From a virus: a DNA stretch of 64,000 nt. Below are positions 48,840-63,520 of the stretch, piece after piece (the first letter of the stretch is position 1; each line of letters opens with the position of its first letter). Position numbers and translations under genes: made by a program. The notes under the pieces were generated by a model. The model saw nothing but the letters and a program-made list of their open reading frames with translations. It searched no databases and was not told the DNA's origin. The stretch lies in IMG/VR virus record IMGVR_UViG_3300047388_000163, positions 1 to 64,000 of that record, one strand, 5' to 3'.

Positions 48840-48846
48840 ACGCTCC

Positions 48847-48908
48847 GTTTACGAATCAATATGGCCACAGGTCCTGGTTTATGTCAACGGGCGGTTTACG
48901 AATTAATC
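48847..48908 (-). promoter_or_regulatory. Promoter P1 with two copies of the TTCGTAAAC box
   Basis: Minus strand: box GATTAATTCGTAAACC (48908-48893), then TTGACA (48887-48882), 18 nt, CATATT (48863-48858). A second box copy, TGATTCGTAAAC (48858-48847), lies from the -10 through the start site. Two operator-like copies flanking one promoter suggest repression or activation by a protein binding this sequence. Confidence 0.7.
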
Positions 48909-49429
48909 GGGCCATTGCCAAATCGAGCTGGCGGCAGAAGGCTGGCCGAACCGCCAAAGCCAGCGCCATAGTTCCGGCCGATCTTCTCCATCAGGGCAAT
49001 GCCGTCAGCATCGGTATCATCCCTCATGGCATCATCGATATAGGCGCTGTCTTGCCCAGATAGCGGTTTCTCGGGCTGCGGAGCGGCCGCTGTTGCGACT
49101 TTGACCTTCCCCGGTACTTCGGCGAAGGCTGCGGCTTTGATCTCCTCCTGGAGGTCCCCAAGCTGCCTCATCATCATCGCGGTGGCGCCTTCCATCTTGG
49201 CGCTGACCCGGATGGCCACCCGCTCATATTGTTCCCGGCTTGCGGTAACGCGATCTACCTCAAGTTTTAGGAAATCGACCTTGTAGGCGAGTGCCTGGTT
49301 CTCGGCATTGGCGGTTCGGAGCTGATCGGTCAGAAGCATGACCTTCAACTGAGATTCGGCTAGGTCAATTTTCAGCTTGTCGTATTCGTCGAAAAACCTC
49401 GCCTCGGTCGATTCGCGGTCGTGGATCAT
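48896..49429 (-). CDS. Coiled-coil protein ending the P2 operon
   Basis: 177 residues. Residues 15-65 form a coiled coil (DEYDKLKIDLAESQLKVMLL, NQALAYKVDFLKLEVDRV), then further helix and a disordered Gly/Pro C-terminus. The last codons, GGPINS-stop, are written by the box of promoter P1. ATGA overlap with the upstream gene. Confidence 0.6.
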   Translation of the reverse strand: MIHDRESTEARFFDEYDKLKIDLAESQLKVMLLTDQLRTANAENQALAYKVDFLKLEVDRVTASREQYERVAIRVSAKMEGATAMMMRQLGDLQEEIKAAAFAEVPGKVKVATAAAPQPEKPLSGQDSAYIDDAMRDDTDADGIALMEKIGRNYGAGFGGSASLLPPARFGNGPINS

Positions 49430-49617
49430 GTGATGTCCTCTGCAACAAGTTTATACCGCTCTCCATCAATCCAAATGATCTCTGGATTGCGCTTCTCTCT
49501 TTCGCTGACCAGCACATAGCCAACATTTTCTGCAACTATGGTGGCTAGCCAGAATTGATCTTCGCATGAGAGCTTGAATAATTGCTCTCTGATGTCGTCT
49601 CGTGAACCTGCGATCAT
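49426..49617 (-). CDS. Hypothetical small protein
   Basis: 63 residues, coupled on both sides. N-terminal helices (DDIREQLFKLSCEDQFWLATIV) and a C-terminal beta hairpin (EIIWIDGERYKLVAE). Unknown function. Confidence 0.6.
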   Translation of the reverse strand: MIAGSRDDIREQLFKLSCEDQFWLATIVAENVGYVLVSEREKRNPEIIWIDGERYKLVAEDIT

Positions 49618-49853
49618 GTCTTTACCCTTGGATAAACCATCCTGTTTTGCGGCCCCGGCGTTGTTGATAAAGCCACGTGAAATTTTCCGCGACGCAAAGC
49701 TGCTCCGAGACTAACGAAACAACCCGGCGGACCACCCGAGCTTGGACACCGCCACGATCGTTTGTCAGGAAATAGCATCTCAGCAAGCCCAGCAAACGAC
49801 ATCGGCTGACCTGCCAAGGCGATATCAATTCTATGCACGAGGCTGGCCTTCAT
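49614..49853 (-). CDS. Hypothetical protein, HTH-like
   Basis: 79 residues from ATG 49853 (ATGA overlap with the gcrA stop), preferred to an earlier ATG inside gcrA. HRIDIALAGQPMSFAGLAEMLFP and SLGAALRRGKFHVAL suggest a winged HTH. Placed just after the GcrA homologue, it may be co-regulatory. Confidence 0.55.
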   Translation of the reverse strand: MKASLVHRIDIALAGQPMSFAGLAEMLFPDKRSWRCPSSGGPPGCFVSLGAALRRGKFHVALSTTPGPQNRMVYPRVKT

Positions 49854-50236
49854 CTCTGCTGGAAACAGATTCTGCAATGGGAAGCACAGTAAGGGAAACC
49901 CTGCAATTGCTTCCGGCCGCAGAATAGATAATCCGAAGCCCCTACAGGATATCGACAGTTATTTGGCTTCAAATCTGCAAACGGTATCAAGTCGGCAAGA
50001 TCGGCAACTTCCTCCGCAACCGGCTCGCATTGCATGTACGGAGGTTTGGCCACGGGTTTTCTCGGCTCTCTCGGTTTTGCGACGCCATGAAGCGGAATCT
50101 TGTTTCTGAAAGCGACCCCAATCACGGCGCACCGAGTCATACCACCGATTTGCGCGGCAATCTGCGATGCCGATAGCCCATTTTCCGAAAATCTGGCGAT
50201 CGAGGCAATGGTTTCCTTGGAATGAACCGCGCTCAT
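49850..50236 (-). CDS. gcrA: GcrA-family cell-cycle regulator homologue
   Basis: 128 residues. N-terminal DNA-binding part: FSENGLSASQIAAQIGGMTRCAVIGVAFR, matching the GcrA pattern G-x-SASQIA-x-LGG-xTRNAVIGKxHR. C-terminal sigma70-interaction part: NNCRYPVGASDYLFCGRKQL, then PYCASHCRICF. In Caulobacter and relatives GcrA binds sigma70-RNA polymerase and activates promoters with methylated GANTC sites. Two deviations: the typical N of TRN is Cys and K of GK is Val. A phage copy could redirect host transcription or regulate phage promoters. Confidence 0.85.
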   Translation of the reverse strand: MSAVHSKETIASIARFSENGLSASQIAAQIGGMTRCAVIGVAFRNKIPLHGVAKPREPRKPVAKPPYMQCEPVAEEVADLADLIPFADLKPNNCRYPVGASDYLFCGRKQLQGFPYCASHCRICFQQR

Positions 50237-50454
50237 GATGGCGGATTCCCATCGACAGTAAGAGATCCGGCTATGCCATAACTGCTGCCGAAACCTCCGG
50301 TGGCATATGTGTCCATATATTCTGGATGATCACTGGACATTTTCGGTCGGAAACCGGCAGATCTCTCCGCTCGGATCCATTCTGATTTGGTTACCTGAAC
50401 CCATTTCGATCCTGGAATTCCTTCAGACTTCAACCAATGTGTGTATTCTGTCAT
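50233..50454 (-). CDS. Hypothetical protein
   Basis: 73 residues from ATG 50454. Short, aromatic N-terminus (TEYTHWLKSEGIPGSKWVQV), then a low-complexity Gly/Tyr/Ser end. Coupled upstream and downstream. Confidence 0.55.
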   Translation of the reverse strand: MTEYTHWLKSEGIPGSKWVQVTKSEWIRAERSAGFRPKMSSDHPEYMDTYATGGFGSSYGIAGSLTVDGNPPS

Positions 50455-50966
50455 GTCGTTTCCTTTGCGTTCTTGGTCAGTTCTTCCAAAGAAATTCCGC
50501 ACATAGAGGCGATGCGCTCCAAGACCTTCTGCTTTGAGGCTTCGAAATCTTTGTGTCCCATGCTGGCGTGGTCTTGCGATTGCGGAACCCAAATATGTAG
50601 AAGCAAACCTTCCTGCTTCATGACTGCATATGGCTCCATCTTGCGGACCATCAGAATCATGGCAGCCATTGCTTCTTCATTCGCGCATAAATGCTCGGTG
50701 TGATCCGCATAGCCTTCCCAAACCAAGCATCTCTTTCGCAGGTGCTCAGGCGACAATATTTTCTCGCCGTATTGCTCAGGAAGGTTGTCGAATCCCTTCC
50801 GCACGCAAGCATGAAAGTGGCGGTGGCTCTCTTCTGATCGCCCCTTGTGATCAACCAGAACGTATTCCGTGCCGGCGCGGTACTGCCGTTCTGCAAGCTT
50901 GCGGAAACGGTCGAGAGGGACCATCTCGCGACCGGACCAGACAAACGCTACCGCTTCTATTTTCAT
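50451..50966 (-). CDS. Phage protein of a widespread unknown family
   Basis: 171 residues from ATG 50966 (ATGA). Pattern: MKIEAVAFVWSGREMVPLDRF, RSEESHRHFHACVRKGFDNL, LPEQYGEKILSPEHLRKRCL, then SQDHASMGHKDFEASKQKVL. The last part resembles proteins found beside phage recombination functions, but I cannot name the family with certainty. Probably acts with RecT and neighbours in early DNA metabolism. Confidence 0.65.
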   Translation of the reverse strand: MKIEAVAFVWSGREMVPLDRFRKLAERQYRAGTEYVLVDHKGRSEESHRHFHACVRKGFDNLPEQYGEKILSPEHLRKRCLVWEGYADHTEHLCANEEAMAAMILMVRKMEPYAVMKQEGLLLHIWVPQSQDHASMGHKDFEASKQKVLERIASMCGISLEELTKNAKETT

Positions 50967-51436
50967 GTGATATATTCCCAACCAAATCCTCGGTGAGTTG
51001 ATTGCTTACCGTTGCAAACATCCCAAATACATTTTCTATGGGCACCCGCAGTATTTTCTGCAGCCTCAAGCAGGCTAGGAAATATTTTCCCATCGGATCG
51101 ACGGACTGGGCGTGTAGATTTTCTATTCAAACTTTGCTGGTGCCGAGTCGCCCAACGGCAGTTTCCCGGCTCATAGTTTCCATCCTTATTCGGATGTCGG
51201 TCTATCGAATAATCAAGACTTGGCCTTTCCCCCATATCCGCAAGAAAGTTTTCAAACGAATTCCATCGATCACAGACCTTGATGCCAATAGCACCATACC
51301 GCGCATAAAAAGTAAAATTTGGGTTATTGCAACGAGTACGCATTGTGCACCAAGATACGTATGTTATCGAACCGCTGTAACCATGTGTTCTCGTTCTTTC
51401 TCCGATTGTTTCTCGACTTGGACGAATTTTAGTCAT
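50963..51436 (-). CDS. HNH-type homing endonuclease with C-terminal intron-nuclease repeat
   Basis: 157 residues. N-terminal two thirds: TYVSWCTMRTRCNNP, YGAIGIKVCDRWNSFENFLAD, LDYSIDRHPNKDGNYEPGNC, an HNH-related fold common in phages in which the usual DR-D-N-N reads DRHPNKDGNY. C-terminal part: SDGKIFPSLLEAAENTAGA, ending GWEY, an IENR1/NUMOD1-type repeat used by homing enzymes for DNA binding. It lies between two early genes with weak ribosome site, consistent with a mobile insertion. Confidence 0.7.
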   Translation of the reverse strand: MTKIRPSRETIGERTRTHGYSGSITYVSWCTMRTRCNNPNFTFYARYGAIGIKVCDRWNSFENFLADMGERPSLDYSIDRHPNKDGNYEPGNCRWATRHQQSLNRKSTRPVRRSDGKIFPSLLEAAENTAGAHRKCIWDVCNGKQSTHRGFGWEYIT

Positions 51437-51449
51437 ACCGGCTCAATCT

Positions 51450-51875
51450 TCATTTCAGGACTAAGATTGTTAAGCCACTTCGCTTGCCGAGCGTGACATT
51501 CTGTAAGGATGACATGTCTGGGAATTCGACGGCTTCGCAACGTTCAATGAACGCCTCGTGCTCATCTTCATCCTCTGGAAGGCCTCCACGTGGAATGTAA
51601 CGATCTGGCCTGCCGGAGGCCTCCCACACCTTCCCATCGAAGAACCAATAGGAGCAATCTGTAATGCTGCTATCATTCCATGGCCAAGGCCAACCCTGTG
51701 CTGGCAATGTTGCATCGTCTCGTAATGCGAGAAATTTACTGACAGCAGTGCGATATTCCTGTTCTGTTTTTGCAGCCTCTATTTCTTCGGAAATCTCGTA
51801 TCCATCCCATGCGATGGATCCAAGCCATTCAGCGCTCTTGTTCTTGCCGATATAAAAATCTGCACGCGTTCCCAT
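51450..51875 (-). CDS. Conserved phage hypothetical (MGTRADFYIG)
   Basis: 141 residues beginning MGTRADFYIGKNKSAEWLGS and continuing with a Trp/Asp-rich middle (GWPWPWNDSSITDCSYWFF) and DRYIPRGG. Proteins with this start occur in many unrelated phages as unknowns. GGAG lies 9 nt before ATG. Function unknown. Confidence 0.65.
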   Translation of the reverse strand: MGTRADFYIGKNKSAEWLGSIAWDGYEISEEIEAAKTEQEYRTAVSKFLALRDDATLPAQGWPWPWNDSSITDCSYWFFDGKVWEASGRPDRYIPRGGLPEDEDEHEAFIERCEAVEFPDMSSLQNVTLGKRSGLTILVLK

Positions 51876-51918
51876 TATTTATCTCCGTTTGTTTTGATTA
51901 TGTCTCAATCTTCATGGC

Positions 51919-52500
51919 TCAGCACGAACAGGAGAAGATGCCAGGATTGTGCTCTTTTCCAGATTCGCCTTTCCATGTATTTGGCTTCTTGCCGGTGATA
52001 TTCTGGAAATGAATCCAGAACTCATCCGGTGTTCTTTGGCCTTCCCATTTGCCGCCTTCGCACAGATATTCGCCCCAAGTGCTCTTTGAACCTTCGCAAT
52101 GGGTTGAGGCCACATGCATCATTTCGTGGTAGTCTGCGCCGACATCAGAGGCAAAATCACGAAGCCACTTTTCAGAAGATGATCCGACGCCAAGGCCTTC
52201 CTTGGAAACTGCAGGATGTGACCAGACGTGGCGCAATCCGGTGATCGTGTTTGGGTAAAGCAGCATGAAGAAGCGCTGGCCTACCGTGACATCCTCCGTA
52301 AGGAATGGATCAACGATGCCGATCAGCTTGTAGGGCTCAGGAGGCGATGCAGTGACCCGCCAACCGCCTTCCTCAAAGCCAATATGCTGGCCCGGCTTCA
52401 ATGTTTCGCCTGCGGTAACTGGCATCGTGGCCACATGGATGGCATCTGGCTCGCCAGAGCCATCAATCAACTTGCCAATCAAGAATTGCGAATCAGACAT
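51919..52500 (-). CDS. Conserved phage hypothetical with His/Cys-rich core
   Basis: 193 residues. N-terminal part DAIHVATMPVTAGETLKPGQHIG is beta-rich. Then FFMLLYPNTITGLRHVWSHPAV and a helix with DYHEMMHVASTHC, which looks metal-binding, and a C-terminal CSC. This layout is known in phage proteins of unknown function encoded near recombination genes. ATG 52500 has AGGAGAAA upstream. Confidence 0.65.
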   Translation of the reverse strand: MSDSQFLIGKLIDGSGEPDAIHVATMPVTAGETLKPGQHIGFEEGGWRVTASPPEPYKLIGIVDPFLTEDVTVGQRFFMLLYPNTITGLRHVWSHPAVSKEGLGVGSSSEKWLRDFASDVGADYHEMMHVASTHCEGSKSTWGEYLCEGGKWEGQRTPDEFWIHFQNITGKKPNTWKGESGKEHNPGIFSCSC

Positions 52501-52512
52501 GTGTTTCTCCTG

Positions 52513-53382
52513 TTATGGTTCAAGTTCCGTCTCGCGTGTCTTCCGGGCCGATAGCAATGCATCGCGATCCAACGGCATGAGATCCGACCAGAATGCATCA
52601 AATGATTCGAACAGCGCATCCATTTCATCGTCGGCATCGGTTTCGGCGATTTTGCCTAGAGCCCATGTCATCCATTCAGCACAGTTATCGATGCTCGGAA
52701 TTGGATCTTTTGTCCGATAGATCCGATTTTCAATAGGGTTGCCGGTGCTGATCGGGTCTTCCTTTTTCGGCTCACTGGGCTTGTGCTCAATGGCTTCCGT
52801 TGGGCTTGGAACGCGCTGGCGCGGCGGTGTGATATCGGTTGCCTCGGCGATGATGCGGCCCTCATCTTCGTCATAGATCCCAGCAAATCCGAAGGCATAT
52901 CGCGCCGCTTGGATCATGGACTTGTGGCGCAGCATCCGGTGTTTCATCTTCCATGGCTCGGTGGCCCGTTTGCATTCCTCGTAATATTCCGTGACACATA
53001 CTGGATGCGATCGATCTTTCCGGTACATGGTACAAGTGCACGAGATCAACTCGCCGTCTGGCGCATGCTCCATCTCAAATTCAAAACCATCGCATTGCGG
53101 GTTTGAATTGACGAGATTGACCCAGCCATCGATAGACACGATGGGGACGATACCGCCGCCTTTGGCGGGAAACGCATAGATTTCCTTCGTCAGCGGGTTG
53201 AGATCGTATTCCTTGGCGACGATCAGGAAGGCTGCGAATTGTTCTGCTGTAGCCGTTGCTAGCCCGCAGGTAGCCCGAACGGTCTTGCTGAACTCATCAG
53301 CCTTGAGCGAATACTTATCCGCCATATAGTCCAGCAGCATGAGCTTCTGGCTCGGCTCTTTCCGTATGGAAACTTGGTTCAT
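52513..53382 (-). CDS. recT: RecT-family single-strand annealing protein
   Basis: 289 residues from ATG 53382 (TGATG). Typical RecT/Bet region: FSKTVRATCGLATATAEQFAAFL, YDLNPLTKEIYAFPAKGGGIVPIVSIDGW, then CTCTMYRKDRSHPV, WKMKHRMLRHKSMIQAARYAFGFAGI. It promotes annealing of complementary strands in phage recombination and replication. The C-terminal about 90 residues are a poorly conserved acidic tail. No partner exonuclease of RecE/Exo type is obvious nearby; the adjacent coiled-coil gene may serve. Confidence 0.9.
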   Translation of the reverse strand: MNQVSIRKEPSQKLMLLDYMADKYSLKADEFSKTVRATCGLATATAEQFAAFLIVAKEYDLNPLTKEIYAFPAKGGGIVPIVSIDGWVNLVNSNPQCDGFEFEMEHAPDGELISCTCTMYRKDRSHPVCVTEYYEECKRATEPWKMKHRMLRHKSMIQAARYAFGFAGIYDEDEGRIIAEATDITPPRQRVPSPTEAIEHKPSEPKKEDPISTGNPIENRIYRTKDPIPSIDNCAEWMTWALGKIAETDADDEMDALFESFDAFWSDLMPLDRDALLSARKTRETELEP

Positions 53383-54440
53383 CAGATTAAGCCTTCCCTT
53401 TTGGTAACACCTGGCACATTCTCTCCAGCTCGGACAGCATCGGTGCACAACTTCTCAAGCCGGGACATAAGATCGGGGTCGGATTGAAAGCGTCGAAACG
53501 CCGCAACCGGATCGTTGATGATGGCGAACTTTTTAACCTGTTCCTTGACAGTGCGTGTCCCATAGGTCGGGACAATCGGCGCCGCCGCTACCGGCATAGC
53601 CACTTCCTCAACCTCAGGCATTGGCTCCGGTTCGCCCCGCGTAATCGCCCGATCGGCTGCACGAACATTGGCCTCGTCAATCTCGCGATGCTTGCGTTCG
53701 GCTTCTGCCTGTTCTGCGGCGATCCGTTTGCGTTCTGATTCGCGGAACGACAGTATCGCCGTGTTGAGCTCCTTTTCCTTCGCCGTGGCGCGGGCAATGA
53801 TCGGTGACCATTTCTTCTGTTCAGCCGTATATTTGCGGAACATTGGCTCATAAAGGCTCTTGCCAACTTTGTCGGCGGCCAAGCGGAGTTCAGCAATCCG
53901 GTTCTTGCTGCCGAGCGCTACAGCAGCGTCTGCATCGCTCTTGACGGCAACAGGAGCGGCACCGATCGCAGCATCAATCGCGGTAGCATGCGCCTTGTCC
54001 GGTTCAATTTCCTCAGGCGCATTGTCGGACTTGGCGACATCGCGATTCGCAGCGGGGATTACAGCAACTTCATCCGCCGCATCGCTCCAATTCATGCCTT
54101 CTTCGGCAACCTGCCTATACTCGCTTTCGCTGATCGGATGGCCAGCAACGTAGCTCCACAATTCGTTCAGTTCATCGCCCGTTGCATCATAGATCGTGTT
54201 ACCTGACGCAATATGCATTTTGCTGGTGACACGCGCGGTCATCACGCCGTCTTGCATGTAAATGGCCACGGCAGACCAGCCAATGCGCTTGTTGTTGCCC
54301 TTGTCGTTGCGCTCTTTGATGGGCTTTCGATAAAAACCCAACTGCGGATCATCAACGAACATTTTTGGCTTCTCGCCAGCCAATGAACGCTTCCAGAAAT
54401 CATAGCTCGGCTCAGAGGGCTTTTCGGCGGTTTTGGTCAT
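53382..54440 (-). CDS. RecT-associated coiled-coil protein
   Basis: 352 residues from ATG 54440. N-terminal domain with VAIYMQDGVMTARVTSKM and HPISESEYRQVAEEGMNW, then an acidic linker, a coiled coil (KEKELNTAILSFRESERKRIAAEQAEAERK), and a C-terminal DPVAAFRRF helical end. This combination accompanies recT in many phages. It may help load or stabilise annealing protein; function not established. Confidence 0.65.
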   Translation of the reverse strand: MTKTAEKPSEPSYDFWKRSLAGEKPKMFVDDPQLGFYRKPIKERNDKGNNKRIGWSAVAIYMQDGVMTARVTSKMHIASGNTIYDATGDELNELWSYVAGHPISESEYRQVAEEGMNWSDAADEVAVIPAANRDVAKSDNAPEEIEPDKAHATAIDAAIGAAPVAVKSDADAAVALGSKNRIAELRLAADKVGKSLYEPMFRKYTAEQKKWSPIIARATAKEKELNTAILSFRESERKRIAAEQAEAERKHREIDEANVRAADRAITRGEPEPMPEVEEVAMPVAAAPIVPTYGTRTVKEQVKKFAIINDPVAAFRRFQSDPDLMSRLEKLCTDAVRAGENVPGVTKREGLI

Positions 54441-54616
54441 CAGATGAATCCTTTGTCTTGGGCAAGCCATTCTGGCATTGTGAAGGTGCCATCGGAGTTT
54501 TTCTCCACCATGGATTTTGGCACCCATTCAGTCGTTTTGCCGTCGTAAATGCGGAATGCTTTATCGGTCTCACCGCGCAATTCGCCTGCGATATCGATTA
54601 ATTCTCGCTTGCTCAT
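54440..54616 (-). CDS. Small conserved phage protein
   Basis: 58 residues from ATG 54616, ending TGATG with the next gene. Sequence KAFRIYDGKTTEWVPKSMVE and MPEWLAQDKGFI matches a short phage protein type with a Trp-Pro-Lys-Ser motif, often encoded near replication or recombination genes. Unknown function. Confidence 0.65.
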   Translation of the reverse strand: MSKRELIDIAGELRGETDKAFRIYDGKTTEWVPKSMVEKNSDGTFTMPEWLAQDKGFI

Positions 54617-54798
54617 GCGTCATCCTCTCTCACTTCACCGTCGCGCTCACAGATGCGGAATCCTTCGCGCAATTCCTCAACCGCATTGCCGAGATATTTC
54701 CCAGTAACACCATGACCATTGGCATAGGCTTGGCCATCGTAATGGCTGATAACCACAGCAGAACCTGCCGGAATATGCTCGCCAGCGACATACAGCAT
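54613..54798 (-). CDS. Small conserved phage protein
   Basis: 61 residues. Starts MLYVAGEHIPAGSAVVIS, a short beta-barrel-like pattern typical of phage head-decoration-like or DUF2190-like fragments, ending in a charged helix. Overlaps both neighbours. Confidence 0.55.
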   Translation of the reverse strand: MLYVAGEHIPAGSAVVISHYDGQAYANGHGVTGKYLGNAVEELREGFRICERDGEVREDDA

Positions 54799-55061
54799 CA
54801 GACATGCTCCAACGCTTCCCGGTAAACCGCCAGCGCCTTGGTGAGGCCATCGGCTTCCGTCTGATCAGCATTGAAAGCCGTGGCGAGATAGGTCTTTGAC
54901 CCGAGGCCGCTCAATGCAATGGATGCTGCCTTTGTTCGGATGCAGTCGCCTCGGATGCGATGCACTGACGCCAAGAATTCCTGTTCGTGCTTTACGATAT
55001 CGCGCGGTTCATCGTAGAGCGCTTGGGCGATAATGATTGCGGGGTGCGTGGTGGTGGTCAT
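54798..55061 (-). CDS. Hypothetical helical protein
   Basis: 87 residues, Ala/Thr/Asp-rich helices (IIIAQALYDEPRDIVKHEQEF). Conserved-looking ALSGLGSKTYLATAFNADQ. Coupled to both neighbours. Function unknown. Confidence 0.55.
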   Translation of the reverse strand: MTTTTHPAIIIAQALYDEPRDIVKHEQEFLASVHRIRGDCIRTKAASIALSGLGSKTYLATAFNADQTEADGLTKALAVYREALEHV

Positions 55062-55312
55062 GCTGATTTCTCCAGCGTATGGAACACGCGTGTTTCTGGA
55101 ATATCGGCAATCTCGCGGGTGCGCGACTTAGCCGAATATTTGCTATCGAACTTGGTGGCCGCGTTCGGATCGCCGATCCACGCAACAATTGTGTGGCCCT
55201 CGCTATCCACGCCGAACGTTGCAAATCGGTTGGCATTCGGTGCCCATTGAATGACGACCTGAGGATGCGATGGAAGCTTGGGCTTGCGGTGTTTTCCGCC
55301 GATGGTGGTCAT
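55058..55312 (-). CDS. First gene of the P2 operon
   Basis: 84 residues from ATG 55312 (GGGGAGAACG upstream). Basic start (GGKHRKPKLPSHPQVVIQW) then an alpha/beta segment (TFGVDSEGHTIVAWIGD) and a helical end. Lies about 36 nt after the predicted start of promoter P2. Confidence 0.6.
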   Translation of the reverse strand: MTTIGGKHRKPKLPSHPQVVIQWAPNANRFATFGVDSEGHTIVAWIGDPNAATKFDSKYSAKSRTREIADIPETRVFHTLEKSA

Positions 55313-55354
55313 TTCGTTCTCCCCTAGTATGAGCCCCAATGGCTCCGTGGGACC

Positions 55355-55404
55355 TATCAACCACGGATCAGGGATCAAGTCAACTGGTGGTTTACGAATT
55401 AATC
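55355..55404 (-). promoter_or_regulatory. Promoter P2 with TTCGTAAAC box
   Basis: Minus strand: box GATTAATTCGTAAACC (55404-55389), then TTGACT (55383-55378), 17 nt, TTGATA (55360-55355). The box is identical to that of P1 for 16 bases. It drives the recT/gcrA polycistron from 55312 to 48896. Confidence 0.7.
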
Positions 55405-56557: not shown

Positions 56558-56567
56558 CTCGGCTCCT

Positions 56568-56792
56568 CTAGAATGGGATCTGATCGATATATTTCTCGGC
56601 AACGGCCATTGCTGATCCCATTTGCGAGATCGCCTCGCGCAATTGGTCGGATATCTTCCCGTGAGTTGCCAATCTCACCTTGCCAGCCGCCTTGTATAGA
56701 TCGGAGAGCGGCCCTTCCGCTTCTATCGCTTCCTTCTGTAGCTTCTGGCGCCATTCTGTTTCGCGAGCGAGTGCCGTATCACGATACTGCAA
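56568..56792 (-). CDS. Coiled-coil protein with uncertain start
   Basis: An open frame ends TAG at 56568. Helical sequence LARETEWRQKLQKEAIEAEG, then LREAISQMGSAMAVAEKYI. No ATG except one far upstream within the 56800 gene; TTG 56792 or TTG 56840 are the realistic starts (74 or 90 residues). The frame overlaps the apparently truncated gene upstream, so the two may derive from one disrupted gene. Confidence 0.45.
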   Translation of the reverse strand: MQYRDTALARETEWRQKLQKEAIEAEGPLSDLYKAAGKVRLATHGKISDQLREAISQMGSAMAVAEKYIDQIPF

Positions 56793-56799
56793 ACTCTGC

Positions 56800-57024
56800 T
56801 TAGCCGTTGCCAGATCCTTGGTGGCTTGCTCTAGCGCCAACTTGAATGGTCGCGTCGCCGCCGGAGACCTGAGAAAGATTGCTCTCTTTCTCAATCCAGC
56901 CACCGAGATCTCCAGCGGCCACGCCGATTGCAGCAATTGCAACCAACGCGCGGATGCGATGCAATTTGATGCCGAATTCGATCTTGGTTTCTGCGGTTAG
57001 TTCGTATTTCTTGGTTTCGGCCAT
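56800..57024 (-). CDS. Truncated Gly-Asp repeat phage protein (YELT family)
   Basis: 74 residues from ATG 57024 (AGGAGAT). Starts KKYELTAETKIEFGIKLHRI and contains AGDLGGWIEKESNLSQVSG, the head of a phage protein family that normally continues with many GDARVxGNA-type beta-helix repeats. Here only QVSGGDATIQVG follows before TAA. Repeats appear lost by deletion or frameshift. Confidence 0.6.
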   Translation of the reverse strand: MAETKKYELTAETKIEFGIKLHRIRALVAIAAIGVAAGDLGGWIEKESNLSQVSGGDATIQVGARASHQGSGNG

Positions 57025-57060
57025 TCTGATCTCCTGCTGTGGTGAGCCACTTTGGGCTGG

Positions 57061-57231
57061 TTAACGTTTGATTAGTCGTCCGTCAGCATCGGTGATTCGC
57101 CAACTATCAATCGTTCGAACCAGTTCTTGAATGCGATCGTCCGTAAGATCGTCAATCCAAGTATTGCGAATGATCTCGATGAGAGGCCAGAGGCGATCAC
57201 CTTCTTGGATTGTGTATTGATCCCGATTCAT
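57061..57231 (-). CDS. Small hypothetical protein
   Basis: 56 residues from ATG 57231 (GGGAGTG). Helical, acidic then basic (EGDRLWPLIEIIRNTW, TDDRIQELVRTIDSWRI). Unknown function. Confidence 0.55.
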   Translation of the reverse strand: MNRDQYTIQEGDRLWPLIEIIRNTWIDDLTDDRIQELVRTIDSWRITDADGRLIKR

Positions 57232-57243
57232 TGGGCACTCCCG

Positions 57244-57573
57244 TCAAATGCTGTAAAGTGGGGTTCTGAGAACAAGGCGGAAATGCGAGGCATTGAAGCC
57301 ATGACGATCAATGCACTTTGGCCCCTTGTGCGCGATAATACCGCGCTCGCGAAGAGTGGCGGCATCATAGCGCCATTTCTTGCCGTAGTAGTTCATGCTG
57401 GTTGCAGCTTTGGCCAAGCAATCGGAACCGAACACGCCACCGAAACCAGCGAGTTTCACGCCAATCTTGAGCGGGCGGCCACAGTGCGAGCATTCACATT
57501 CCTGCTCGCAACCGATGATTTCCACTGGTTCTGCGGCGAAGAATGCGATCTGTTTCGATTCGGTCTTGGCCAT
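57244..57573 (-). CDS. Zinc-binding protein, first gene of the P4 operon
   Basis: 109 residues from ATG 57573, chosen over ATG 57579 because CAGGGAG is 8 nt before it. CECSHCGRPLKIGVKL then GSDCLAK and a His/Cys-rich C-terminal part (KCIDRHGF) suggest a zinc ribbon. Alternating basic/aromatic segments (SMNYYGKKWRYDAATLRERG). Function unknown. Confidence 0.6.
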   Translation of the reverse strand: MAKTESKQIAFFAAEPVEIIGCEQECECSHCGRPLKIGVKLAGFGGVFGSDCLAKAATSMNYYGKKWRYDAATLRERGIIAHKGPKCIDRHGFNASHFRLVLRTPLYSI

Positions 57574-57599
57574 TTGCATTGCTCCCTGATGATGACCCT

Positions 57600-57644
57600 T
57601 CTGTAAACCCCATGTATGCACTTGTCAACTGATAGTTTGCGTGA
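57600..57644 (-). promoter_or_regulatory. Promoter P4 with diverged TTCGTAAAC box
   Basis: Minus strand: box-like CACGCAAACTATCAG (57643-57629), then TTGACA (57628-57623), 17 nt, TACAGA (57605-57600). Aligned to P2 it matches at 16 of 23 positions across box and -35. On the plus strand TTGTCA (57622-57627) with TAAAGA (57645-57650), 17-nt spacing, could be the divergent promoter of the HTH gene. Confidence 0.6.
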
Positions 57645-57657
57645 TAAAGACCGATTT

Positions 57658-57885
57658 ATGAGCAAACCATCCAAAAAACCCGATTACGTCATTCCCCGAA
57701 CCAATGCTGAGGGCCTGGCTCTCGTCTGGACCAAGATTCGCAAGGCCGAATTAGCCCGACAGCTTGGCGTTTCGCGAATGTCGCCATCAAAGTGGAAGAA
57801 ATCTGTTCCGGTGGAAAGGGTTAATGATGTAGCTCGGATCATCGAAATTCCACGAGAGCATATTCTTCCAGAAATTTTCGGGTAA
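57658..57885 (+). CDS. Cro/CI-like HTH regulator
   Basis: 75 residues from ATG 57658. HTH: LALVWTKIRKAELARQLGVSRMSPSKWKKSVP, then VNDVARIIEIPREHILPEIFG, typical of small Cro-like XRE proteins that dimerise through the last strand. Divergent from the P4 operon, the arrangement of a lambda-type switch. No good ribosome site, and the predicted start of transcription at about 57657 would make the mRNA leaderless. The best candidate for binding the TTCGTAAAC boxes. Confidence 0.75.
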   Translation: MSKPSKKPDYVIPRTNAEGLALVWTKIRKAELARQLGVSRMSPSKWKKSVPVERVNDVARIIEIPREHILPEIFG

Positions 57886-57912
57886 CCCACCGAATCACCA
57901 ACCTGAGGAGCC

Positions 57913-58755
57913 ATGATGGCCAGACCAAAGATGACGGACGATCAGAAGGCGGCAGCGAAGGCCGCGCGTGAGGCAGCGAAGGCCAATGCACCAGCAGCGG
58001 CGGATCGGGCTGAGGCAAGGGCGGCATCGAAAAAGCCGCCCACGGACGCTCCCAAGGCCACTGTGGCACCTCGTGGCGTCAATCCTGAGTTCGACCGTGA
58101 GGAGAAGGCGCTTTTTCTCCAGCATTTGCCCGAGATTGAAAGATTGCGTGGGCTGTTGGGCACTGCCAACTCAAATTTGCGCAATGCCTATAAGAAAGCC
58201 AAGGCCGAAGGCGCATTCACGAAGGCAGACTTTGATGTCGCGATAGCGGTAAAGACTGCGGAAAACGAGGCCAAGGAACGGGCCAAGATTGCGCGGGCGC
58301 TCAAGATCGCCAAGATGTGCGGTTCTTCGCTGGGAAACCAGTTGGATATGTTCCTGGAACCTGACCGGACGCCGCTATCCGATCGCGCATTTGAGGAAGG
58401 CGAATCGGACGCGATGCAGAACATTCCGGCGCGACCGCAGTATGATCCCTCCACCGAAGCTTATCGCCGGTATTTGGACGGTTTCCATTCCGTTTCCGAG
58501 CGCCGGATCAAGGAAGGCATGGGCACCCTGCATCCTGAGGTCGAAGCTGATGAAATCGAGAAGGTTAAGCATCAGGCCGAGATGGATGCGCTAAAGGCAC
58601 GCGATGCCAAGGCATTTGAGGGATACGACCAAGAGGCTGCAAATGGTGGCGCCATCCAGGAAGTTGCCGCAACTCCCTCCTCTGGCGTACCGATGACGCG
58701 AGCCCAGTTTAAGGCCCAGCAGGAAGCGGCGAAGGCTGCGAATACGAAACATTGA
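57913..58755 (+). CDS. Hypothetical protein, Ala/Lys-rich
   Basis: 280 residues (ATG 57913 or 57916; GAGGAG upstream). N-terminal about 55 residues basic and Ala-rich, then helices (LPEIERLRGLLGTANSNLRN, AENEAKERAKIARALKIAK), then PLSDRAFEEGESDAM and YRRYLDGFHSVSE. The last third is helical, ending MTRAQFKAQQEAA. Strong candidate for a DNA-associated factor of the replication module, but I do not recognise the family. Confidence 0.65.
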   Translation: MMARPKMTDDQKAAAKAAREAAKANAPAAADRAEARAASKKPPTDAPKATVAPRGVNPEFDREEKALFLQHLPEIERLRGLLGTANSNLRNAYKKAKAEGAFTKADFDVAIAVKTAENEAKERAKIARALKIAKMCGSSLGNQLDMFLEPDRTPLSDRAFEEGESDAMQNIPARPQYDPSTEAYRRYLDGFHSVSERRIKEGMGTLHPEVEADEIEKVKHQAEMDALKARDAKAFEGYDQEAANGGAIQEVAATPSSGVPMTRAQFKAQQEAAKAANTKH

Positions 58756-58763
58756 AAGGAATA

Positions 58764-58859
58764 ATGCTCCAAGGCACCTCGAATAGTGAGCAAGTCCGAT
58801 GGCAACAGAATGCCTTGTGTCCTGTCGGAACCATAGCCTCCGTGGATATGCCGCGGTGA
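58764..58859 (+). CDS. 31-residue small ORF
   Basis: ATG 58764 with AAGGA five bases upstream. Encodes MLQGTSNSEQVRWQQ to VDMPR. No hydrophobic segment or motif; could be a leader peptide or chance. Confidence 0.25.
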   Translation: MLQGTSNSEQVRWQQNALCPVGTIASVDMPR

Positions 58860-59063
58860 ACGCCGACCAACTAGGTTGGAGGAGTAACAGACGGATTATG
58901 TCGGAGGCGGTTGAAAGGCCGCACTGAAATCCGCCGATAGCGTGACAGCTCGGAGAGACGGCATTTGATATGAATTGCGCAAGGGTTCTCCTGCCCCCAA
59001 TGCGCGGTAGGGAATGGCCTCGGTGGTTTCCCCAGCACCGGGGCAATTTGCTGAGAGGATGTG
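58860..59063 (+). other. Non-coding stretch before rusA with hairpins
   Basis: No gene visible. A 9-bp hairpin with one G-U pair, GCCTCGGTG (59017-59025) with CACCGGGGC (59036-59044), stands 17-20 nt before the rusA start region, and CCAAC-TAG-GTTGG forms a shorter one near 58870. Could be a leader regulatory element or part of an RNA gene together with 58764-58859. Confidence 0.35.
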
Positions 59064-59582
59064 ATGGACGAATACCTTGCAGGCATCATGGAGCGCGCGC
59101 CAGTTGAGGCTGCTGCGCCTGAGCCATTCGTTTTCATCGTGCTGCCTGGCGATCCCCGAGGGAAGGGCAGGCCACGCACGCGGGTAATCAAGGATTTTGC
59201 GACGATCTACACCGACCCAGAAACCCGTAAATACGAGAATTCCCTCAAAGCCGCCGGCATCAAGGCCATGGTAGGGAAAAAGCCTCTAGATGAGGCTGTG
59301 TCAGTGGTAATCCATGCTCATATGCCGGTGCCAGCGAGCTGGAGCGCCAAAAAATGGACGGCAGCAATAGCTGGCGACATCATGCCGATAACTGGGATTG
59401 ATTTGGACAATATTTGCAAGATGATCGATGGCCTAAATTACCATCCGCCGCGCTTCAAAGGCGATCGTGAAAAGCGGCCAATCATTTGGCAGAACGATGC
59501 CCAGATCGTCAGCATGCAGGCCATGAAGCTTTACTCGGCCAATCCGAAGCTGGAAATCACTGTTTGGAAATGGGAGGGATGA
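59064..59582 (+). CDS. rusA: RusA-like Holliday junction resolvase
   Basis: 172 residues from ATG 59064 (GAGAGGA upstream; GTG 59061 also in frame). RusA signatures: VLPGDPRGKGRPRTRV, YTDPETRKYENSLKAAG, and GIDLDNICKMIDGL with the catalytic Asp pattern D-x-DN-xxK-xxxD. Then WQNDAQIVSMQ, the last conserved acidic strand (usually DD; here ND). Resolves recombination or replication junctions, with RecT as partner. Confidence 0.9.
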   Translation: MDEYLAGIMERAPVEAAAPEPFVFIVLPGDPRGKGRPRTRVIKDFATIYTDPETRKYENSLKAAGIKAMVGKKPLDEAVSVVIHAHMPVPASWSAKKWTAAIAGDIMPITGIDLDNICKMIDGLNYHPPRFKGDREKRPIIWQNDAQIVSMQAMKLYSANPKLEITVWKWEG

Positions 59583-60644
59583 ATGTCCGTTCTGCATAGC
59601 TCTAACATCATCAATCCTTTTCAAGACGCAAATCCTTTCCGAAACGAAGCTTTGACGGTTTCTCCCATTGAATGGAAAACCGGAAAACTTTCATATGAGG
59701 ATTTTCAAGCTTACGAGGCCATTCTGGAGAAATATCCGCATGTCAAATCGATGGATAGGGACGCTCGGTATAAGTTATTCATCGATAAGAAAGACGAACT
59801 TATCCGAGAAATGGCCGATGTGAACCGGCAAGCCCATGCTAAAAAGCTGGAACTCAAGGATATTGAAACGAAAAAAGCGGTTATTGAAAAGCTGCTGGAC
59901 TGGGGCGCGGATCTCAAAATTCAGCGACCCAATGGCATCTCATTTCGCAAAATGCGTAAGGCTTTCGCCGAAGATCGCACAATCTATCTGGACAAAAGCC
60001 TGCACGGAGTGATGCCAAAGCTTGATTTCGAGAAGGAAATCTTCCGTTTCGCCGAAGTTCTGTTGATTGAGCACGATTGGGCCGCAGCCTTCAAGAATGC
60101 GGATCTGGCCGATTCGGTTGTGAAATTGCCCTACGATGTTTGCGCTTTCGAGTTCCGGTTCTCGGATCGGCCTGTGATTGCTCTGGCGACGCAGTTCGGA
60201 ACCGATATCGCTTTTACCGCTGTCGTCTTGATTGATGAGTGGTGGGTGGTCACTGATTTTGCCGGGCGCATTGGAGCGGATTACGAAGACAACAATTCGA
60301 AGTATGAAGCTCTTGTACGTCTATTCCACGAAGTCAGCCGCCAGATCCGAGCCGCCTGTATCTCACTTGACGCAGAGGTTGCCAAGGCTGAGGTGGTCCG
60401 TGAGCCTCATTCCGGCCAGCACGGCAGAAATGCCCACCAGATGCTGAAACCCTACCACGTGGTCTCTCTGGCCCGGCGCGGGCCTAGGCCGTTGGTATCG
60501 GTGGGGACTGAAACTGGCCGGCGCGTTCGGCTGCACTTCCGGCGCGGTCATTGGCGCCATTTCGAGGATCACAAAACTTGGATCAAATGGTGCCTTTGTG
60601 GAGATCCTGATCTTGGCTTCATCGATAAGCATTACAAACTGTAG
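59583..60644 (+). CDS. Phage protein with conserved C-terminal HFRRGHWR motif
   Basis: 353 residues. Middle: helical, basic (EKLLDWGADLKIQRPNGISF), then beta-rich (ACISLDAEVAKAEVVREPHS). C-terminal about 80 residues have KPYHVVSLARRGPRPL and LHFRRGHWRHFEDHKTWIKWCLCGDPDLGFIDKHYKL, a pattern recurring in uncharacterised phage and plasmid proteins. ATG 59583 directly follows the rusA stop. Function unknown. Confidence 0.65.
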   Translation: MSVLHSSNIINPFQDANPFRNEALTVSPIEWKTGKLSYEDFQAYEAILEKYPHVKSMDRDARYKLFIDKKDELIREMADVNRQAHAKKLELKDIETKKAVIEKLLDWGADLKIQRPNGISFRKMRKAFAEDRTIYLDKSLHGVMPKLDFEKEIFRFAEVLLIEHDWAAAFKNADLADSVVKLPYDVCAFEFRFSDRPVIALATQFGTDIAFTAVVLIDEWWVVTDFAGRIGADYEDNNSKYEALVRLFHEVSRQIRAACISLDAEVAKAEVVREPHSGQHGRNAHQMLKPYHVVSLARRGPRPLVSVGTETGRRVRLHFRRGHWRHFEDHKTWIKWCLCGDPDLGFIDKHYKL

Positions 60645-60702
60645 AAACGAATCAGGTTTTTCTCTAGCGCTAGTTATTGACTGCGGGCTGAGAATCGCCC
60701 TA

Positions 60703-60785
60703 CAAAAGCAAACGACGCCGGAGGGCTTTTGCCGGCGCCGTTAAACTAAGTCCGATGATGCTTGCAGGCTGTTCGGACGGGTAAC
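60703..60785 (-). ncRNA. Candidate small RNA with promoter and terminator
   Basis: Minus strand: TTGACG (60820-60815), 17 nt, TAAATC (60797-60792), predicted start about 60785, then about 45 nt and a GC hairpin (CCGGCG 60737-60732 [minus CGCCGG] with 60721-60716, 10-nt loop), followed by TTTGCTTTTG (60712-60703). Promoter-like and terminator-like elements at proper distance imply an RNA of about 80 nt. The -10 is weak (3 of 6). Confidence 0.35.
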
Positions 60786-61111
60786 AACGATGATTTAGGC
60801 AATATCTCGCCTTTCGTCAACCCCCGTCTAAACCCCGCAAAGCAGCATCGGTTCCAAGCCCGCTAAGTAGCGGCCGATGAACGATTTACGCTGTTGAGGT
60901 CTGCCCGGTGGTTCCCGCTCATAGAGGCAAAATCCAGATTCGAGTAATTCCGGCATTTGAAGGAGCGCGGGACTAAGCCCCCGGTCCGAGCAAACGCCGC
61001 CATAGGCTATGCTCGCATCTACGACATGAACGGCAAAATACCTTCCTACAGGTTGTAGGGCTGGGCGGTTGGTCCCCGAAATCGGACATCGTAGGTATAC
61101 GCGCTAGTATG

Positions 61112-61162
61112 GCTCCCCAGTGCTCTGGCTGTCCCTCTGGGTAGCCGGGAAGAGCGGGGAGC
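61112..61162. repeat. Long imperfect hairpin upstream of zinc-ribbon gene
   Basis: Outer stem GCTCCCC (61112-61118) with GGGGAGC (61156-61162), then a 3-nt bulge and GCTCT (61122-61126) with AGAGC (61151-61155), then GGCT (61127-61130) with AGCC (61143-61146) and a 4-nt bulge. About 16 bp in all, close to 45 nt before the start at 61208. Could be mRNA leader structure or a binding site. Confidence 0.5.
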
Positions 61163-61207
61163 GGGCTATAAAGGATACGGAACTGGAAATGAACAAAGGA
61201 GAAAAAT

Positions 61208-61645
61208 ATGAGCAAAATCAGATACAAAATTGTTCCAGGTGCGGGGAATATTTGTCCGAGGTGCAAATTGGCGACACAAATTCGTGAACACAAGTTCATT
61301 ACTCAAAAGCGTCTCAATCAGCCCTTCTACTATTCAAGATGGTTCAATTGTATCAATCCGAATTGCCAGACGACGGCGATTATGCCGGAAAAATTCAGGG
61401 TCATGCGCAATCAGAAGCAAATGACCTTGAAGACCGAGCCGGATATTTCTTCGGCGCGCATTTCAGAACAAGAACGTCACTTTCTTTCTTTGATCAATTC
61501 TGAAGATGCTACCATCGGGGTAGGGACATCTATTGGCGCTCGGCTACATCGGCGAGGCCTTGTACAAATCGCAAAATCTGGTCGTTACGGCATCACCGAA
61601 GCAGGAAAGAAGGTTTGCGGCGAACAGGAGGAAACAGCATGCTGA
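61208..61645 (+). CDS. Zinc-ribbon / winged-helix protein
   Basis: 145 residues (AAAGGAGAAAAAT before ATG). ICPRCKLATQIREH and FNCINPNCQTT form a four-Cys zinc ribbon at residues 15-55. The C-terminal half (RISEQERHFLSLINSED, ARLHRRGLVQIAKSGRYGITEAGKKV) is a winged HTH. Looks like a regulator or replication initiator-type protein. Confidence 0.65.
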   Translation: MSKIRYKIVPGAGNICPRCKLATQIREHKFITQKRLNQPFYYSRWFNCINPNCQTTAIMPEKFRVMRNQKQMTLKTEPDISSARISEQERHFLSLINSEDATIGVGTSIGARLHRRGLVQIAKSGRYGITEAGKKVCGEQEETAC

Positions 61646-62067
61646 CCTCTCAAACGCTGGCGCGAATCACTGAATTACGCTTGGACCTGATCACCGAGAC
61701 GGCTGTGATAGAGATCCTGGAGGCTGAAATAGCCGCAGCGGTATCTACGGGATCCTCGGTCGCATTGCAGTTACCTGCAGATTGGCCCCACGATTACCGA
61801 GAACAGTTCTGGCGCAGATATCCCAACAAGACAGCCAAGCCCAGAGCTATGAAATCGTTGGATAAAATAGCGTACGCAGGTAAGATGCGCTGGGCCGGTT
61901 TGATGGATGGTCTTGAACGGTATAATAGATCACCCAAGGTAATGGGCGGGTTTGTAAAAAATCCTGCGACATGGCTGAATGACGAAGGCTGGAACGACGG
62001 CCCACAGCCAAATGGACCGAAAAAGAAGCTGAGTTTCTTCGAAATCGCAGCTGGGCACGGTGATTGA
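61639..62067 (+). CDS. Replisome-organiser-like protein fragment
   Basis: 142 residues from ATG 61639. YREQFWRRYPNKTAKPRAMKSL, then RWAGLMDGLERYNRSPKVMGGFVKNPATWLNDEGWND. This pattern is found in the C-terminal domain of phage replication proteins and DnaT-type helicase loaders. It lacks the N-terminal DNA-binding domain, which may be supplied by the 61208 product. Overlaps it by 7 nt. Confidence 0.65.
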   Translation: MLTSQTLARITELRLDLITETAVIEILEAEIAAAVSTGSSVALQLPADWPHDYREQFWRRYPNKTAKPRAMKSLDKIAYAGKMRWAGLMDGLERYNRSPKVMGGFVKNPATWLNDEGWNDGPQPNGPKKKLSFFEIAAGHGD

Positions 62068-62068
62068 A

Positions 62069-62287
62069 ATGAAACCTGATCGTTTTGGAAATAGGGCCAT
62101 GCTTGATAAAATGGATGAATCTGAGCCATTTTTCATTTTACGCGGCCAAGATGCTTTCTCGGCTCATCTGGTTAAGTTGTGGGCGGATCTAGCAGAGAGC
62201 GCTGGAACCAACGGTGCCAAAGTCCTGAATGCTCGCCAATGTGCCAGAGCAATGCGGAATTGGACCAAAAAGAAGATACCAGACTGA
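62069..62287 (+). CDS. Small conserved phage protein
   Basis: 72 residues from ATG 62069; GTG 62060 is an alternative. DKMDESEPFFILRGQDAFSAHLVKLWADLAES is a pattern widespread in phage proteins of unknown function. Ends in TGATG with the next gene. Confidence 0.6.
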   Translation: MKPDRFGNRAMLDKMDESEPFFILRGQDAFSAHLVKLWADLAESAGTNGAKVLNARQCARAMRNWTKKKIPD

Positions 62288-63063
62288 TGGCAAATGACCT
62301 TACGACAGCCGAGGGCAAGGAATTCTCAACCGATACGGTGACCCTCCAAGGCCTGCAGACGACCGTGCAGAGGCTTTACGGTGCGCTGGGCAAGGATGGC
62401 ACCCGAGACACATTGCCCGCTCTGCCGCCTCCCCAGCTCCGTGGTCGCATGCGGGCGCGTCAACTGGACCTGAACACGCAGCTGCGGCCAATTTCGATGG
62501 CATCTGCTGAGCGCGATCGGGCATTCAAGGCGATCTCCGCGCTGTTGGGGGGGTATCTCAACATCAAATCGGACAATCCTCAGGCGGTTGCCGCCGGCTA
62601 CACGGCCCATCTGATTGAACAGCCGCTATTCGCCATCCTCCAAGCCTGCGATGATTTCAAAAACCGCCGTGTTTACGATCTAAATGCTGACGGCGAGCGC
62701 GTTCCATTCACAATCGACCATGCCCCATCAGCCTTCCGATTGCTTGATCAGGTCAAGAAATGCGCCGCAGACATGCGCGAGGAGCATTACCAGATCGGCC
62801 GGGTATTGGCGGTAAAGCAGATCGCCACAACGCCGATGATATCCCCCGACGAGCAAGCCCGTGTCGCTGCGGCAATGCGGTTGAGATCAATGGAGCTCGG
62901 TTCCGTGGCAGATGCTGGGCACCAGGCCGACATGACCAAAACCCAACGAGAGGCACAGGAAGCCCGCGATCGGGCGGCCAAGATCACCGAGGACGGTATC
63001 CGCCGACGCGCCGCATTCAGCGCTGAGCAGGAAGCTCAATCGTATGAGGATCTGGTGAGATGA
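62287..63063 (+). CDS. Hypothetical replication-module protein
   Basis: 258 residues from ATG 62287. Middle is helical (ERDRAFKAISALLGGYLNIK), then IEQPLFAILQACDDFKNRRV and a charged coiled coil (TKTQREAQEARDRAAKITED). No catalytic signature. Coupled upstream and overlapping the next gene by 4 nt. Confidence 0.6.
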   Translation: MANDLTTAEGKEFSTDTVTLQGLQTTVQRLYGALGKDGTRDTLPALPPPQLRGRMRARQLDLNTQLRPISMASAERDRAFKAISALLGGYLNIKSDNPQAVAAGYTAHLIEQPLFAILQACDDFKNRRVYDLNADGERVPFTIDHAPSAFRLLDQVKKCAADMREEHYQIGRVLAVKQIATTPMISPDEQARVAAAMRLRSMELGSVADAGHQADMTKTQREAQEARDRAAKITEDGIRRRAAFSAEQEAQSYEDLVR

Positions 63064-63257
63064 TTCCATTGAGCGAGCGCACGACAGAATTTGACGAAAT
63101 GCTGGCGCGATTGGATGAAATCTCCAGAAGGTCGCGTCACCTTGGAATATCGCTGGCCGCTTATCCAGTGGCCGATATAGAGCGAGTTGTGGCAATTTTG
63201 GCTGCTGGCCAGTTTTTCCGACCGAAAATAGTTTCAAATACGGAAAATTCCCAATGA
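63060..63257 (+). CDS. Hypothetical small helical protein
   Basis: 65 residues, coiled-coil-like (TTEFDEMLARLDEISRRS), with ATGA overlaps on both sides. Unknown function. Confidence 0.55.
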   Translation: MIPLSERTTEFDEMLARLDEISRRSRHLGISLAAYPVADIERVVAILAAGQFFRPKIVSNTENSQ

Positions 63258-63433
63258 AACCATGTCTATGCATGGACTGCGCCCAGCCAATGACGGTGGA
63301 AGAAATCCACTATTACGAATCACGGTGCGAGAATTGTGAACGGGCTTGGAGCGATCGAATCGGGGCATGGATGCGCCGTGAAACCGAGGAGCCGGAGATG
63401 GAAGCGATGTTCGGGGCGCCCAAACCAAAATAA
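63254..63433 (+). CDS. 59-residue zinc-ribbon protein
   Basis: Starts ATG 63254 (ATGA). CLCMDCAQPMTVEEIHYYESRCENCERAW: Cys pairs spaced for one zinc. Stop TAA 63431-63433 lies in the first bases of the P3 box. Confidence 0.6.
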   Translation: MKPCLCMDCAQPMTVEEIHYYESRCENCERAWSDRIGAWMRRETEEPEMEAMFGAPKPK

Positions 63434-63477
63434 TTCGTAAACCAACCGTTGACATCAATGTAAACCTGTGCTTTATG
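63431..63477 (+). promoter_or_regulatory. Promoter P3 with TTCGTAAAC box
   Basis: Plus strand: box TAATTCGTAAACC (63431-63443), then TTGACA (63449-63454), 17 nt, TTTATG (63472-63477). Relative spacing of box and -35 is the same as in P1 and P2. The spacer also holds a partial box, TGTAAACCTGTG. Confidence 0.7.
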
Positions 63478-63520
63478 GGGTTGAGACAACGAGGCTCGGC
63501 AGAAACGGAGATCAGATCGC

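Follow-up and report, generated by a model that had tools for sequence, protein, structure and literature searches.

A Shared 17-bp Inverted Repeat at Early Promoters of an Uncultured Phage Group and Its Probable Cro/YdaS-Like Repressor

The stretch of DNA analyzed here (the window) comprises bases 1–64,000 of the 67,131-bp virus record IMGVR_UViG_3300047388_000163, whose phage is labelled G000 below. Four of its early promoters (P1–P4) carry copies of a 17-bp inverted repeat (dyad), GTMAAC-N5-GTTKAC, whose right half contains the -35 element. The best explanation, and in our view a quite probable one, is that a small Cro/YdaS-like helix-turn-helix (HTH) protein encoded beside P4 represses P1–P4 through this single operator. 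An earlier note on this DNA had suggested that a shared regulatory site at four early promoters defines a phage regulon, and this suggestion was supported both by a matrix derived from relatives only and by loci collected independently of the motif.

The Inverted Repeat at P1–P4

The sequence TTCGTAAACC is present in three exact copies, at 48893–48902 (−), 55389–55398 (−), and 63434–63443 (+), all of which sit upstream of GTTGAC. No further exact copy was found in the 67,131-bp record, and the reversed motif, which together with shuffled genome sequence served as the control for motif counts, gave none. With at most one mismatch, ten matches were detected in the window against 2.03 expected, a number reached in 0 of 100 shuffles. 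At P1, P2, and P3 this box is followed by N2-C-N-G-TTGAC and then by a 17-nt spacer in which a TG lies one base ahead of a weak -10, so the proposed box at a set spacing ahead of TTGAC was confirmed for these three promoters. The idea that the box usually lies inside a longer sequence held for P1 and P2, where GATTAATTCGTAAACC is exact (48893–48908 and 55389–55404, both −), whereas P3 has a different version, AAATAATTCGTAAACC. A second copy near the P1 start, also proposed earlier, is indeed present (TTCGTAAACG, 48846–48855).

The box had been regarded as an element of its own, phased upstream of the -35 element. The spacing is real, but the separate box is not, since the -35 element forms part of the right half of a 17-bp dyad: as read from the sequence, the box is the left half of GTMAAC-N5-GTTKAC and not something standing beside the -35 element. 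In the form found at P1–P3, GTAAAC-N5-GTTGAC, one of the six pairs of the inverted repeat is mismatched. A search for GTNAAC-N5-GTTNAC returned three, three, and two sites in G000 and its closest relatives G001 and G002, respectively, solely at the P1–P3 promoters (controls, 0). A matrix made from the eight P1–P3 sites of these three phages gave 41.9–56.8 for those sites, which are also its training sites, compared with at most 4.0 for everything else listed and 10.0 as the best of five shuffles.

The P1 operator, GTAAACCGCCCGTTGAC, occupies 48883–48899 (−), with a -35 TTGACA at 48882–48887 and a -10-like CCATAT at 48859–48864. At P2, the operator GTAAACCACCAGTTGAC lies at 55379–55395 (−), with TTGACT at 55378–55383 and TTGATA at 55355–55360, and at P3 the operator GTAAACCAACCGTTGAC lies at 63437–63453 (+), with TTGACA at 63449–63454 and TTTATG at 63472–63477. 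The -35 hexamers at P1–P3 are near-perfect and the -10 hexamers poor. A second site at P1, GTAAACGGAGCGTATGA (48836–48852, −), is conserved in its left half only and lies over the ribosome-binding region of the gene at 48669–48839.

P4 carries a weaker copy of the dyad, GCAAAC-N5-GTTGAC, and P4 of G001 reads GTCAAT-N5-GTTGAC. The P4/cro operator, GCAAACTATCAGTTGAC, is located at 57624–57640 (−) and ends 17 bp before the start codon of the Cro-like gene; its -35 is TTGACA (57623–57628) and its -10-like hexamer TACAGA (57600–57605). A putative promoter of the Cro-like gene at 57622–57650 (+) consists of TTGTCA (57622–57627), a 17-nt spacer with most of the operator, and TAAAGA (57645–57650). A possible second, weak operator, GTAAACCCCATGTATGC (57603–57619, +), of which the left half alone is good (matrix score 8.0), was found 21 bp from the main P4/cro site. 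This half-conserved site lies over the P4 -10, and GTAAAC is present there in G001 too.

A second matrix was built from 26 dyads of relatives only; G000–G002 were excluded, and the relatives G012 and L148 gave no dyads to it. With this matrix, P1–P4 took ranks 1–4 both in G000 (21.8, 19.8, 17.8, and 11.2, with one other site tying at 11.2) and in G001 (20.4, 19.8, 18.4, and 16.3). For shuffled genome sequence, the expectation is 0.0012 P4-like scores per 100 positions. The claim of a diverged copy at P4 is supported for the larger palindrome only; as a box, P4 is not significant, scoring 1.5 with the eight-site matrix, below two other genome sites. The comparison with G002 covered 40,000 of its 56,337 bases and showed no relatives of the right-hand early genes of the window, so its P3 and P4 could not be placed.

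The Operator in Relatives

The wider group of phages was first reached through a motif scan of viral contigs, by way of which additional dyads came to light in contigs less closely related to the window. Scanning viral contigs for the box gave 97 stretches, most of them in unrelated sequence by eye and chance-like. A homology search that made no use of the motif gave 27 loci; its query was the core of the product of 57916–58755 (+), the gene after the HTH gene, which encodes 279 amino acids and has no assigned function. Three other window proteins and a first query from the 57916 product returned already-known contigs only.

At least one exact dyad was present in 22 of the 27 loci, and in 18 of the 23 whose contigs had not already been given by the motif scan. 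The loci contain 42 dyads in total, whereas the reversed control occurs 0 times in the same 372,962 bp. A Cro-like frame was detected in 24 of the 27, and in 14 of these 24 a dyad ends 7–19 bp before its start codon. Five loci lack an exact dyad, namely L139, L148 (GTCAAG-N5-GTTTAC upstream of cro), L159 and L161 (short contigs whose Cro-like protein is the same as that of L157), and L163, which has no Cro-like frame and a weak match to the 57916 product (E 2e-4). In both L020 and L021, a Cro-like gene and a dyad promoter diverge, and the gene after the Cro-like one is related to 57916; G003, with its five dyads, is organized likewise. Among whole contigs, dyads occur in 11 of 14 records and the control in 0 of 14, with at most five dyads per contig. 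Five were found in G015, one of which, GTGAAC-N5-GTTCAC, falls outside the consensus. An HTH gene near a dyad in L016 (E 0.09) encodes a different XRE protein and was not counted.

The distance between the half-sites is strict. We used a hand-chosen set of 15 sequences (342,323 bp), with about one sequence per phage or fragment and near-identical loci omitted, which still contains related fragments such as L149 and L155. In this set GTNAAC-Nk-GTTNAC occurs 34 times with k = 5 and twice in total over the 14 other values of k from 0 to 14. On the other hand, N5 dyads are absent from G012, which has the most diverged Cro-like protein among those found (E 8.5e-5) and carries three TGTCAA-N6-TTGACA sites, in which the half-sites are N4 apart; one of these sites is at its own cro promoter. 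TGTCAA-N6-TTGACA is absent from the other phages searched (G000, G003, G013, and G015).

Candidate Binders and Modes of Action

Because of the synteny and the co-variation of operator and protein, the 75-residue Cro/YdaS-like product of 57658–57885 (+), the proposed repressor, is most likely the protein that binds the dyad, as a dimer. The earlier note had mentioned this HTH protein beside P4 as a possible binder, a role made likely by the motif-independent loci, the cro-adjacent dyads, and the matrix ranks. In Pfam (E ≤ 0.01), 13 of 14 Cro-like members matched YdaS and 11 of 14 matched P22_Cro, and helix 3 is alike in the 14 aligned members. The small window protein has a predicted fold of the Cro/CI HTH type: the best match of its AlphaFold model (predicted local distance difference test score 78) among solved structures is the prophage Cro 3bd1 (Z 7.6, root-mean-square deviation 1.9 over 59 residues), and P22 Cro (1rzs) is fourth. 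In addition, its gene heads the region divergent from P4 (−), with the operator between the two promoters. An early doubt, namely that the Cro-like proteins are diverged whereas the P1–P3 half-sites of G000 and G001 are identical, was dropped because the 14 members have a similar helix 3 and because distant relatives carry the operator at cro.

The -35 element within the right half of the dyad points to repression; with the operator over the -35 element at P1–P4 and between -35 and -10 at cro, repression is therefore the simplest reading. A Cro-like dimer over the -35 element would keep RNA polymerase off P1–P4. The P4/cro site would also shut the cro promoter itself, where the operator lies between the putative -35 (TTGTCA) and -10 (TAAAGA), resulting in autorepression. 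After an early burst of transcription, the rising Cro-like protein would then jointly turn down the recombination genes and the small early genes as well as the run that contains the GcrA homologue and the P3 run.

Such an arrangement looks like early-gene shut-off and not like a lysis/lysogeny switch, because searches for a tyrosine integrase and for an S24-type CI repressor gave no match. Whole-record searches for GcrA, S24, and integrase covered 10 records, some of which are fragments. Tyrosine integrase (PF00589) matched 0 of the 10, several being fragments, and the S24 repressor domain (PF00717) also matched 0 of 10, CI proteins without an S24 domain and other lysogeny genes not having been searched for separately. 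The gene opposite cro (57244–57573) gave no repressor match.

Several observations weigh against repression by the Cro-like protein. The window protein itself falls below the curated Pfam cut-offs (YdaS, 23.3 of 30 bits; P22_Cro, 20.8 of 30.2), all of its matches in the PDB have Z < 8, no Foldseek match has an E-value below 0.001, and in helix 3 it carries Met at a position that is Gln in the 13 other aligned members. Because several relatives are nearly identical to one another, the dyad and locus counts are not independent. No exact dyad lies directly upstream of cro in 10 of the 24 Cro-bearing loci, and P4 is the weakest site though it is at the cro promoter. The best score in 20 genome shuffles ranged from 8.7 to 21.1 and reached 17.2–21.1 three times, so that a lone P2- or P3-like score is no proof; single scores being weak, the weight rests on the joint placement at all four promoters. 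Finally, L005, L025, L053, and L056 carry two or three dyads and no Cro-like relative in the stretch examined. In these contigs, the dyads are found at L005:1477–1510 (two abutting copies), L025:1896–2286, L053:12611–12655, and L056:1059–1298. Given these contigs, the half-site may serve other regulators too.

The same protein, or a relative, might bind the dyad as an activator, which from a dyad centre at about -40 would touch sigma region 4 and aid promoters with weak -10 hexamers. Lambda CI acts as an activator at PRM, class II activators sit where the dyad centre lies here, and the poor -10 and near-perfect -35 hexamers at P1–P3 would suit such a role. However, the bases of the -35 element are themselves covered by the right half-site, the site at the cro promoter falls between the putative -35 and -10, where binding should block, and two promoters of G003 combine a good -10 (TATAAG) with the same operator. 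Activation is thus unlikely.

It is also conceivable that no regulator is involved and that a strong constitutive promoter (an UP-like AT-rich stretch, the -35, and TGn-10) was copied between gene blocks. AATTAATTC, which precedes the operator, is AT-rich, TGn precedes the -10 in 8 of 8 P1–P3 sites of the three phages, and by eye the similarity of P1 and P2 extends over about 46 bp. However, neither UP elements nor sigma contacts explain why the left half-site is complementary to the -35 element, and the strictness of N5 in distant phages and the N4 form accompanying a diverged Cro-like protein are not accounted for either. Moreover, the AATTAATTC prefix is confined to G000–G002 and is not retained further away (in nine more remote sequences, TTC stands in front of 0 of the 11 operators of the GTAAAC type). 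A bare promoter is very improbable.

The earlier note had also considered the phage GcrA homologue, which would bind the box and recruit sigma70 RNA polymerase. The product of 49850–50236 (−) is a genuine GcrA family member (Pfam E 1e-21, matching the family in both N- and C-terminal parts), is 65–68% conserved in the two close relatives, and is encoded within the P2 run. On the other hand, it was found in only three of the 10 records (G000–G002), and six of the seven without it carry dyads, some records being fragments. According to a passage of a review, Caulobacter GcrA acts at methylated promoters, yet GANTC lies within P1 alone of P1–P4 (48853–48857), the nearest copies being 38, 63, and 76 bp from the P2, P4, and P3 operators, respectively. 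The P1 copy reads GATTT in G001. The overall GANTC count was not taken as evidence of depletion, because GANTC reads the same on both strands and the two numbers compared, observed and expected, may have been counted differently. As a general binder, the GcrA homologue, found in three of the 10 records (some of them fragments) and with GANTC in one of four promoters, was rejected, and a role of GcrA at the box appears slightly more doubtful still than a bare promoter. A host transcription factor whose regulon the phage had borrowed is the least credible of all: TCGTAAACCNNNNGTTGACWT, the exact P1–P3 form only and not the general dyad, gave 19 stretches in 84,980 bacterial and archaeal genomes, with one match each and from varied phyla.

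Early Gene Runs, Other Features, and Known Systems

The open reading frame (ORF) map agrees with the earlier statement that P1, P2, and P4 head three successive minus-strand runs. The P4 run (57573–55392) consists of 57244–57573, 57061–57231, 56568–56903, 56132–56557 (HNH/DUF968), and 55392–56153. The P2 run (55312–48896) includes the genes 53382 (weak exonuclease match), 52513 (Bet/RecT), and 50451 (weak NinB match) and the GcrA-like gene at 49850, and the P1 run spans 48839–46621. P3 heads a plus-strand run that extends past the window end and contains 65742–66359, which we tentatively read as a terminase small subunit. At P1 and P2, the box overlaps and supplies the stop codon of the upstream gene (48896–49429 and 55392–56153, respectively), and INS is the C-terminal sequence of both upstream proteins. 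The same ending is seen at the P2 box in G001 and G002 with different ORFs, as if genes had been swapped at this boundary.

A leader hairpin, GAGCC-ATTGG-GGCTC, was found at 55331–55345 (−), close to where the P2 transcript is expected to begin; no clear counterpart was seen at P1, P3, or P4 of the window. Similar hairpins lie downstream of the relatives' operators: GAGMC-loop-GKCTC, located before the ribosome-binding site of genes headed by the operator, is present in G001, G002, G003, G005, G013, G014, G015, G019, L155, and L157. When 25–110 nt were searched, 19 of 52 operator orientations had a hairpin with a GAG-starting stem 48–57 nt after the operator start, approximately at the expected transcript 5' end. 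Set-wide, there are 98 such hairpins on both strands (684,646 strand-bases), and by arithmetic less than one is expected near the 52 sites. Two arm pairs occur (GAGCC/GGCTC and GAGAC/GTCTC), which is no independent proof of pairing, as the search demanded complementary arms. Our guess is that the hairpin is a 5'-end stabilizer or a site of translation control.

For the lineage as a whole, which would be an undescribed one, we tentatively picture one Cro-type repressor without CI, a transplantable operator/-35 cassette, conserved 5' hairpins on many transcripts, control of the early runs through DNA and probably through RNA as well, and N5/N4 spacing that co-evolved with the repressor. This wider picture is held with clearly less confidence than repression of P1–P4 itself.

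Compared by DNA with a collection of annotated phages, the region 44000–64000 had no relatives, and the 53382 and 57916 products had none in this collection either. The GcrA homologue gave one weak match there (33% identity), Bet-like matches were many but generic, and the best-listed TerL match, of 1303 records, was 36.9% identical. Only the GcrA homologue and distant TerL matches, e.g., from a Paracoccus phage, suggest an alphaproteobacterial host. Two further features of the window were noted. A 66-bp block at 60791–60856 is identical in the window phage and G001 (L098:7968–8033, minus strand) amid otherwise diverged sequence; it sits in an ORF-poor gap (60645–61207), and Rfam gave no match in the window at gathering scores, nor in 60600–61260 at E-values up to 1. 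The 1333-amino-acid protein of 37568–41569 matches DarB-like antirestriction and minor head families.

In lambda, a small HTH protein of the Cro fold acts at 17-bp imperfect palindromic operators, which lie over early promoters in clustered triplets. The present system resembles lambda and P22 Cro in that a rightward and a leftward early run diverge, the rightward one opening with the gene of a small Cro-fold HTH protein, and 17-bp operators overlap early promoters. Unlike in those phages, single operators are spread over the early promoters (three to five dyads in those larger records that have more than a single dyad) and the -35 element itself forms part of the half-site. Neither an S24-type CI gene opposite cro nor a tyrosine integrase, which mark lambdoid immunity regions, was found in any of the 10 records, some of them fragments. 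The stoperators of mycobacteriophage L5 likewise are many dispersed genome sites for one repressor; however, they are asymmetric 13-mers for a lysogeny repressor, whereas the sites here are symmetric 17-mers on -35 elements.

YdaS is described as a Cro equivalent in a passage of one paper (PMC9986795). The Cro-like members described here share with YdaS of Rac-type and CP-933P prophages the match of 13 of 14 to the YdaS model (the family's label of toxin being a name only here), whereas the scanned early proteins include no YdaT- or RacR-type partner, no search by name having been made. TgrL of the Caulobacter phage phiCbK, likened here by description and not by a homology test, is also a small XRE/HTH phage regulator. 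According to a passage of its report (PMC10688885), it is expressed very early and is mostly a repressor, acting mainly on host genes, whereas the sites reported here are in the phage's own early promoters. Among the open-access titles and abstracts searched, no report of this operator or regulon was found.

Taken together, an unexplained repeated box is replaced by a defined operator and a named candidate repressor, and thus by a predicted early regulon for an uncultured phage group. The operator is short, strict, and genome-specific and could help to locate early promoters in sequence fragments. The N5/N4 pair would represent a natural specificity swap. In addition, the apparent Cro-without-CI layout raises the question of what an orphan Cro does in phages without visible lysogeny genes.

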